In this document: positions 21,001 to 58,003 of the stretch, one piece after another
How the letters are laid out: each line of letters opens with the position of its first letter
How positions within the stretch are numbered: the stretch's first letter is position 1
Assembly: GCF_017254845.1 (NCBI RefSeq)
Contig: NZ_JAFKCU010000003.1
Location: 496,001 to 560,000 of the forward strand
DNA from: Algoriphagus pacificus
Lineage (GTDB): Bacteria > Bacteroidota > Bacteroidia > Cytophagales > Cyclobacteriaceae
Reading direction: 5' to 3'
DNA: 64,000 nt
Notes under the pieces: model-generated
The model's database searches: none
What the model was told of the DNA's origin: nothing
The model's input: only the letters and a program-made list of their open reading frames with translations
Made by a program: the position numbers and the translations under genes

Positions 21001-21072
21001 GGTCCGTTCGTCTAGGGGTTAGGACGCATCCCTTTCACGGATGAAACACGGGTTCGATTCCCGTACGGACTA
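21001..21072 (+). tRNA. tRNA-Glu (anticodon TTC), copy 1
   Basis: A 72-base cloverleaf: acceptor GGTCCGT pairs with ACGGACT, the anticodon loop has CTTTCAC with anticodon TTC, and the T arm is ACGGG-TTCGATT-CCCGT. The discriminator is A, with no encoded CCA. Confidence 0.97.
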
Positions 21073-21126
21073 CAAACAGCTTATTATCAGTCGTTTAGCT
21101 GTTTAAATTTGAAATAAATACCCCAT

Positions 21127-21198
21127 GGTCCGTTCGTCTAGGGGTTAGGACGCATCCCTTTCACGGATGAAACACGGGTTCGATTCCCGTACGGACTA
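21127..21198 (+). tRNA. tRNA-Glu (anticodon TTC), copy 2
   Basis: Identical over all 72 bases to the copy at 21001-21072 and separated from it by 54 bases. Both share the downstream CAAA and are most likely cut from one transcript. Confidence 0.97.
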
Positions 21199-21273
21199 CA
21201 AAGACCCCAAAGCTCAATCCCCGCTTGGTCTAATTACATTTTTGTTTTATGGTTGTTAGTGGTTAAAGTGAAC

Positions 21274-56029: not shown

Positions 56030-56063
56030 AAAAGGCCTGAAGAAATTCAGGCCTTTATTTTTT
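56030..56063. terminator. Bidirectional intrinsic terminator
   Basis: AAAGGCCTGA (56031-56040) pairs with TCAGGCCTTT (56047-56056) across a 6-base loop, followed by T residues. It lies between TM2 (+) and the VLRF1 gene (-). Confidence 0.85.
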
Positions 56064-56772
56064 ACCAGTCTTCAGATTCTTCTTCAGGGGAAGAATTTCC
56101 TATTTCTGATTCGCTAAAATGCTTTTCACCTTCCTCAGAGAATAAAATGTGGAAAGCATTCAGTTTTTTATGTATCAATTGAAGCGTTTCAAAATCCGGA
56201 TGCTGCACATGAAAAGGGATCCCCAACAAATTATCCTGTTTCTTGTCAAATGGAGGAGGAGTAGCAGCTCCAAAAAAATAAGGCCACAAAGTCTTGCTAC
56301 ATGAAATACCCCAATGATCTATAGGGTAATTGGAGGCATACTGATTTAATCGTTCATTGATTTCTTCAAAAAACAACTCAGATTCACCCAGGCGAATCCT
56401 GGATCCTGCACGAGATTTTCCTTTAGTTTTCAGGTATTTAATCTGACTTTTTCCTTGTTTCTGACGGACCATATAGGCTCTAAAAACCTTATGATCAATC
56501 AAGGCTCCATCATGGAAATAGCCCGTAGTAGCGATTCCAGCTCTAATCATGACCAAAGCCATGTGATAATCATCTCTTTTTTGGATGGAATTATCATCAA
56601 GCACTTTCATATTCCAAGGAATGGAAACTTTAGCCATCCATTTATTATCCAGAGAAAATTCCATTTGATGGCTTTCTGGTAAATAGCTTTGAATCAATCC
56701 CTTTTGATTTGCTTTTTCTTGAAAAGAATAAAAATCTACAGTACTTATTTCTTTGGATTGGCCAGATGACAT
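56062..56772 (-). CDS. Bacterial VLRF1 (Vms1/ANKZF1-like) release-factor domain protein
   Basis: In this 236-residue protein, residues ~65-145 read YHMALVMIRAGIATTGYFHDGALIDHKVF, then VRQKQGKSQIKY, RAGSRIRLGESELFFEEINERL. These match the VLRF1 domain of Vms1 and ANKZF1 (VRAKQGGSQ, SAGxxLRRY): Q110 of QGKSQ takes the place of the Gln needed to cut peptidyl-tRNA. The C-terminal half (SNYPIDHWGISCSKTLWPYFFG, then HPDFETLQLIHKKL) continues the domain. It has no ankyrin or zinc-finger part. A ribosome-rescue peptidyl-tRNA hydrolase is the likely role, but bacterial members are little tested. Confidence 0.75.
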   Translation of the reverse strand: MSSGQSKEISTVDFYSFQEKANQKGLIQSYLPESHQMEFSLDNKWMAKVSIPWNMKVLDDNSIQKRDDYHMALVMIRAGIATTGYFHDGALIDHKVFRAYMVRQKQGKSQIKYLKTKGKSRAGSRIRLGESELFFEEINERLNQYASNYPIDHWGISCSKTLWPYFFGAATPPPFDKKQDNLLGIPFHVQHPDFETLQLIHKKLNAFHILFSEEGEKHFSESEIGNSSPEEESEDW

Positions 56773-56820: not shown

Positions 56821-57348
56821 ATGCAGGAGGAAACCCAAAAACTTTTTGACAAAATCTGTGATCCCAACGAAAAGGAAGCTTTCTACTTTGCAGAAAAGCT
56901 TGGCAAAATCAATACGGAAGAAGTTAAAGACAAATTGATCGAGCTGGTCAAAGGAGATAATTGGGAAATTGCTTATTTGGCCTGCAGGGCATTATCCAAG
57001 ACAAGCTTTAATGAAGAATCTTTGGATGCGATTTTTGAGGCTATCCGGGACAAAAAGAATCAAAAACACCAAGGAGCTTTTGTACAGATCCTAGAAGAAT
57101 TTGATCTAAGTGACAGTTTTGTGGATATTTTCAGAGTTTATCTTTTTGGCAATTTCAAAGCCGAAACTCTGGCAAAAGAATATCTAGACAGTGTAGAGTT
57201 TGAAATTACTCCCAGAACTATTCGCAAAGCAGAAAAACATTGGAACCATTACCTTCACAATCCTGAAGACGAGGGAAGCATGGCAATAAAAAAAGCTGAA
57301 ATCGAACCTATGTTGCAGGAAATGAGGGAATTATTTTCTGAAGAATAA
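56821..57348 (+). CDS. HEAT-repeat protein
   Basis: A 175-residue, all-helical cytosolic protein with HEAT-type pairs: EAFYFAEKLGKINTEEVKDKLIEL, VKGDNWEIAYLACRALSKTSF, and LDAIFEAIRDKKNQKHQGAFVQIL. It should be a protein-binding scaffold; the partner is unknown. It is followed by the next gene with a 34-base gap and is divergent from the VLRF1 gene. Confidence 0.82.
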   Translation: MQEETQKLFDKICDPNEKEAFYFAEKLGKINTEEVKDKLIELVKGDNWEIAYLACRALSKTSFNEESLDAIFEAIRDKKNQKHQGAFVQILEEFDLSDSFVDIFRVYLFGNFKAETLAKEYLDSVEFEITPRTIRKAEKHWNHYLHNPEDEGSMAIKKAEIEPMLQEMRELFSEE

Positions 57349-57382
57349 ACAACATTTTTTGATTTCTCTGGTTATTACTAAC

Positions 57383-58003
57383 ATGAGAAATCAAGACATC
57401 ATCGGCTTACATACCCAGTTTTTTAGAGACCTGGGTTTCGAGTTGGATAATGAATTGATGATGTTTCAAAAGCCTTTTCCTTTAGGCTTTCAAATGATTT
57501 TTGTTCAGTTTACAGAACATGAAAATCACGCAACTTTAGAGTATAATCTTGGAATCCGGATTCATGAGGTAGAAGAATTGATCCATCAATTTTTACCCAC
57601 ATTGAGTGGTTTTTCGGAAAGATCAATCACTTTGGTGCAAACGCTGGATAAGATTGGCAAAATCCTACCAAAGCAATTTATAATCAACAATGATTACGAA
57701 TTGGCCAAAGCCATAGAAACAGCTGAAAAGTTTCTGATCACTGACGGATTGAATTGGCTAGATAAAATGGAAGATCCATTGAATCTGGAGATCGCCTTTT
57801 ACGAAAGAAAAGCCAAGACTTTTAAGACTTCCAACTTCGTTTATAATGCTTTCCGAGCAACAGCTTTGAGCAAGCTTTACAACCCAACAGATTATCCTTA
57901 CCTAAGACAAATATTTTTAGAAGCGATTGAGGAAAAAGAACTAACACCTTTCACAATTGCCTCTTATTTGAAATTCCTGAATTACCTCGATAACCTCGAT
58001 TAA
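57383..58003 (+). CDS. Hypothetical protein (about 206 aa)
   Basis: I start at the ATG 57383; a TTG at 57359 would add eight residues. The soluble protein begins RNQDIIGLHTQFFRDLGFEL, has an alpha/beta half (PLGFQMIFVQFTEHENHATLEYNLGI), and ends with helices (YNAFRATALSKLYNPTDYPYLRQIFL). It has no motif I recognise. It follows the HEAT gene and is probably cotranscribed. Its last four bases overlap the convergent hrpB gene. Confidence 0.7.
   Translation: MRNQDIIGLHTQFFRDLGFELDNELMMFQKPFPLGFQMIFVQFTEHENHATLEYNLGIRIHEVEELIHQFLPTLSGFSERSITLVQTLDKIGKILPKQFIINNDYELAKAIETAEKFLITDGLNWLDKMEDPLNLEIAFYERKAKTFKTSNFVYNAFRATALSKLYNPTDYPYLRQIFLEAIEEKELTPFTIASYLKFLNYLDNLD

Follow-up and report, generated by a model that had tools for sequence, protein, structure and literature searches.

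The question raised by this locus is whether a short gene in a member of the Bacteroidota encodes a counterpart of the eukaryotic factor Vms1/ANKZF1, and what such a protein would do in a cell that has other means of rescuing ribosomes. The window (the whole stretch of 64,000 nucleotides that was analysed) comes from the genus Algoriphagus, of the family Cyclobacteriaceae and the order Cytophagales. The open reading frame of interest, at 56062–56772 on the minus strand, is intact, begins with ATG and encodes a protein of 236 residues.

Family membership and predicted fold

To establish the identity of the product, we compared it with family profiles. The Pfam search returned PF18826 (bVLRF1, Bacteroidetes VLRF1 release factor), whose curated cut-off is 27 bits, with a score of 102.1 bits (E = 3.5e-29). 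The match runs from position 2 to 142 of the 145 positions in the profile and covers residues 72–209 (56146–56559, minus strand), the VLRF1 core domain, which has an RNase H-like fold and belongs to the eRF1 superfamily; residues 1–71 lie outside the match and are predicted to be structured. Since PF18826 is the only Pfam family in the protein at E ≤ 0.1, the architecture is stand-alone, with neither zinc-finger nor ankyrin families at that threshold. No codon-reading domain and no domain sensing an empty mRNA channel was recognised in the protein, and its C-terminal end is acidic. In an NCBIfam search no family rose above its cut-off; the sole match listed, acVLRF1 (NF041024), scored 11.9 bits where its cut-off demands 125, and membership of that family was rejected. 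According to PMC6514570, acVLRF1 falls within the same VLRF-1 clade as bVLRF1.

Relationship to the eukaryotic protein was more apparent from a profile than from the single sequence. When the bVLRF1 sequence was searched against the sequences of the PDB, yeast Vms1 was weakly matched (E = 0.11). A profile built from alignment A1, which comprises 33 members, matched nothing there but Vms1, represented by three distinct sequences at E about 7e-11; locus L005, whose start call gives a protein of 344 residues, was excluded from A1, and the sequence from L010 included in it starts at a contig edge. Together with the PF18826 score, this result rules out chance or composition as the source of the match. 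On this evidence we take the protein to be a small bacterial relative of the factor that frees unfinished chains from stalled ribosomes in eukaryotes.

The AlphaFold2 model computed on A1 had a mean pLDDT of 86.8 and a pTM of 0.79, with low pLDDT in the loop around residues 101–130 (block means of 53 and 51 for residues 101–120) and at the C-terminal end. In a Foldseek search of the PDB, the first four of 1264 matches (E ≤ 10) were Vms1 structures (6r84, 5whg, 6r87 and 6r86), with E-values of 4.9e-6 to 3.4e-5, TM-scores of 0.42–0.49 by query length and rmsd values of 5.1–12.5 Å. They were followed, from 1e-4 on, by chains of eRF1 and by Balon, a hibernation factor. The model is therefore closest to Vms1 with moderate overlap, and a release-factor core of the RNase H-like type appears to be present. 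Two of the checks proposed with the original prediction, an HMM search and a structural comparison, thus favour the VLRF1 identity that it had assigned, and its description of a short, stand-alone protein lacking ankyrin and zinc-finger parts is accurate.

The family itself is not new. Burroughs and Aravind (2019; PMC6514570) defined bVLRF-1 from sequence, described it as stand-alone and most closely related to eukaryotic Vms1/ANKZF1, and suggested single-component release. The gene is hence a rediscovered member of a family described in 2019 and not a novel kind; what it has in common with that family is the profile match, the stand-alone architecture, a G-x-tiny-Q loop and a host among the Bacteroidota. 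The product is an ordinary bVLRF1 protein, and we found nothing that sets it apart. A Pfam model of the family exists, but NCBIfam gives the protein no name above a cut-off. In the literature searched, which covered few subscription journals, we found no experiment on bVLRF1.

The loop residues and their conservation

We then considered the residues on which release would depend. The predicted catalytic loop region spans residues 99–121 (56410–56478, minus strand) and includes R103, G107, S109 and Q110. In the A1 profile alignment Q110, the last residue of the QGKSQ motif (codon at 56443–56445, minus strand), falls on the glutamine of the Vms1 GGSQ motif, Q295. Counting along the same alignment, R103 corresponds to R288, G107 to G292, K108 to G293, S109 to S294, H94 to H279 and Y100 to Y285. 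The loop is followed by GKSRAGSRIRL (residues 118–128; 56389–56421, minus strand), a basic, conserved stretch at the start of a long post-loop helix that contains RAGSRIR (residues 121–127). It shares a GK...AGS..R segment with the eukaryotic protein.

Conservation was read by tblastn at 113 loci (L002–L034 and L041–L120, with the window itself, L001, left aside), drawn from two collections in which the same organism may occur twice. R103, G107 and Q110 were unchanged at every locus. Position 108 was lysine in 103 of the 113; position 109 was serine in 103, alanine in eight and phenylalanine in two, and hence the G-x-tiny-Q motif (here G107-K108-S109-Q110) carries its tiny residue, S or A, in 111/113. 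Beyond the loop, G118, K119, S120, S124, R127 and L128 were found at all 113 loci, and G123 and R125 at 112. A stop inside the aligned stretch occurred at one locus only. Within A1, 16 columns were invariant, among them H94, Y100, R103, G107, Q110, G118–S120, G123–R125 and R127.

Mutant data reported for yeast Vms1 (PMC5989216) give these positions meaning. The Q295L and G292A changes and deletion of S294 strongly impaired release, and release was abolished by R288A and by the double mutant G292A/G293A; H279A, H283A, R284A and T286A behaved like the wild type, whereas Y285A had a partial effect. Since the counterparts R103, G107 and Q110 are invariant, residues that are essential in yeast have been kept in bVLRF1. 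Invariance alone is no proof of function, however, because H94 is also invariant and yet its yeast counterpart tolerates the H279A change. Overall, bVLRF1 and Vms1/ANKZF1 (eVLRF1) have in common the VLRF1 fold, the glutamine loop, the counterparts of R288, G292, S294 and Q295, and the post-loop segment, whereas bVLRF1 differs in its shortness, its want of any zinc-finger or ankyrin family, a lysine where the yeast motif has its second glycine, and its bacterial host.

Distribution and genomic setting

The original prediction held that the protein, if active, would give Bacteroidota a further peptide-release step. This proved too broad, and the release role itself had been proposed in 2019. A draw across the phylum yielded bVLRF1 in 5/296 genomes, the window's genome included, all five in the window's family; by the listing of that draw, which is ordered by kinship, 12 genomes belong to the window's order and none of the 284 others matched. 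A draw within the order found it in 61/241 genomes and 26/103 genera. The distribution is thus patchy, and its patchiness across order and phylum is what the present analysis adds. Within the window's family (f1) the gene was present in 18 of 25 drawn genomes and was not found in seven from the genera g2, g3 and g144, a pattern that suggests loss or transfer.

The window's genome carries a single copy. A scan of named genomes gave 278 relatives, of which 80 were retained for locus analysis. These came mostly from records labelled Algoriphagus, then Cyclobacterium, Belliella, Echinicola, Indibacter, Litoribacter and Pararhodonellum, together with two metagenome-assembled genomes labelled Spirosoma fluviale and others classified only to family or above; the best match among named genomes was that of Algoriphagus iocasae (69%). 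One scan of viral contigs, for which this protein alone served as query and which could therefore reach only close relatives, found no match.

As originally noted, a HEAT-repeat gene stands opposite bVLRF1, at 56821–57348 on the plus strand (HEAT_2, 30.9 bits against a cut-off of 27.7). In 74 of the 80 named loci a match to it adjoins bVLRF1 and lies on the other strand, and the six without a HEAT match are all from records labelled Cyclobacterium. In the 33 short loci of the order draw (L002–L034, with flanks of at most about 1.5 kb) it was seen in six, that is, in 6/11 from the window's family and 0/22 from other families; the miss at L005 may be an artefact, an overlong start having hidden the region. 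Because it was seen only within the window's family in that draw, we rejected the HEAT gene as a functional partner and read the arrangement as inherited local gene order. Outside the family no neighbour cluster occurred in more than four of the 22 loci. Of ten neighbours scanned at those loci, three encode carbohydrate esterases, two each short-chain dehydrogenases and PDDEXK_2 transposases, and one each a formate–THF ligase, a DUF2339 protein and a HisKA protein. In two genomes of another family, f51, PDDEXK_2 transposase genes are the immediate neighbours of bVLRF1 (L012:2185–3087 and L011:368–1249). In the window, the HEAT gene is followed at 57359–58003 (plus strand) by a gene for an uncharacterised protein of 214 residues with no Pfam family above cut-off and a weak match to XamI endonuclease (E = 0.006; 16.5 bits against a cut-off of 25); 55 of the 80 named bVLRF1 loci contain a match to this protein. 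Elsewhere in the window, at 21001–21199 (plus strand), there is a tandem pair of tRNA-Glu(ttc) genes 53 bases apart.

The host genome also encodes SmpB, tmRNA and ArfB (with its GGQ motif visible), a MutS2-like protein (L132; MutS_V, MutS2/Smr-associated SH3 and Smr on the 569-residue part read), a second Smr protein and an NFACT protein of 527 residues (L121:750–2333, minus strand; PF05833 and PF05670 above cut-off), so that bVLRF1 is one among several rescue genes. The best PDB match of the NFACT protein was B. subtilis RqcH (E = 6e-23, residues 235–519 only); we call it only RqcH-like, because the NCBIfam RqcH model, an archaeal one, gave 52.6 bits against a cut-off of 400. Its residues E93 and R94, invariant in the five NFACT proteins aligned of 184 found, lie near the position of D97/R98, reported as functional in B. 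subtilis RqcH (PMC8373112), and fall outside the span of the PDB match.

In the order draw, NFACT_N (E ≤ 0.001) was found in 56/61 genomes with bVLRF1 and 128/180 without (p = 0.0008, genomes treated as independent), and ArfB above cut-off in 35/61 and 80/180, respectively (p = 0.10, 241 genomes). After the first NFACT_N result we chose to exclude 38 genomes: 36 from families f57 and f68, most of which are small, and a further two that measure 1.6 and 1.9 Mb. For the remaining 203 genomes the figures were 56/61 against 126/142 for NFACT_N (p = 0.62) and 35/61 against 80/142 for ArfB (p = 1.0); kinship was not corrected for in these tests, and the draw includes incomplete genomes. The apparent association with RqcH-like genes had thus gone once the chiefly reduced genomes were removed, and both this link and one with ArfB were rejected. 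Nothing in these counts points to bVLRF1 depending on either gene or taking its place.

Proposed role and alternatives

The ribosome binding, substrate, reaction and physiological role of bVLRF1 we infer as follows. The protein is probably an accessory, stop-codon-independent release factor that acts on split 50S subunits carrying peptidyl-tRNA. When a stalled ribosome is split, the large subunit would keep the peptidyl-tRNA and present an empty A site, which bVLRF1 most likely enters. The GKSQ loop would be pushed into the peptidyl-transferase centre, where Q110 and R103 might free the nascent chain, either by hydrolysis of the ester or by cutting the tRNA near its CCA end. A 50S substrate would be fitting, since no codon-reading domain was recognised, and the MutS2-like protein is a candidate splitter that could produce it. 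The claim that the glutamine releases stalled chains agrees with one chemistry in print for Vms1, described in 2018 as a peptidyl-tRNA hydrolase (PMC5989216); the other, given in later papers, is that of an endonuclease cutting the CCA end (PMC11317155, PMC12868832).

Consistent with a release role are the poor order of the loop in the model and the basic character of the segment that follows. Against it, most loci carry lysine at the counterpart of G293, the second glycine in the GGSQ motif of yeast, and the G292A/G293A protein of yeast is inactive; the moderate overlap with Vms1, the patchy distribution and the lack of a wide neighbour cluster outside the window's family count in the same direction.

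A bolder proposal is that bVLRF1, and not Pth, is the dedicated terminator of bacterial ribosome-associated quality control (RQC) in those Cytophagales that have it. The MutS2-like protein would split the ribosome, the RqcH-like protein would work on the 50S subunit and bVLRF1 would then free the chain. Bacterial RQC reportedly ends with Pth, and no dedicated factor is identified in the account of PMC11317155. The gene pattern is neutral on this proposal, because NFACT_N is about as frequent with bVLRF1 as without it after exclusion, and we regard it as tentative and rather doubtful. If it were true, bacterial RQC would end as eukaryotic RQC does with Vms1.

It is unlikely that bVLRF1 instead rescues intact stalled 70S ribosomes alone, as ArfB does. 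Single-component action in specialised contexts was suggested by Burroughs and Aravind (PMC6514570), and the gene occurs both with ArfB (35/61 genomes) and without it (26/61), and so could provide an independent route. ArfB (NF006718) is likewise a stop-codon-independent release factor with a catalytic glutamine, but its release-factor domain is of the other kind, which is unrelated in structure (PMC6514570), and it is separately encoded in the same genome. Against such rescue, bVLRF1 has no recognised domain that would sense an empty mRNA channel, and its C terminus is acidic, although residues 1–71 lie outside any family match. Moreover, ArfB, tmRNA and SmpB are already available in this genome, and mutual exclusion of ArfB and bVLRF1 was not seen (p = 1.0 on 203 genomes, kinship ignored).

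We consider it very improbable that the protein is a non-catalytic ribosome binder acting in hibernation or in blocking the A site, since the unchanged Q110, R103 and G107 and the sequence-profile match to Vms1 alone in the PDB argue against this, even though the fold search also matched Balon (8rd8_B, E = 4.7e-4) and such roles have been proposed for the baeRF-1 families lacking the glutamine (PMC6514570). Least probable of all is an RNase acting on tRNA or other RNA outside ribosome rescue: the RNase H-like fold, the weaker Foldseek matches to PilM, the UvrC C-terminal domain and RNase H3 (RNase H-type or actin-like folds, E = 3e-3 to 1e-2) and the CCA-end cutting ascribed to Vms1/ANKZF1 would allow it, but the release-factor loop is the focus of conservation.

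Release from split 50S subunits thus remains our preferred reading. Testing bVLRF1 would bear on how bacterial RQC ends and, since the family has been placed closest to Vms1/ANKZF1 (PMC6514570), on the origin of the eukaryotic factor.
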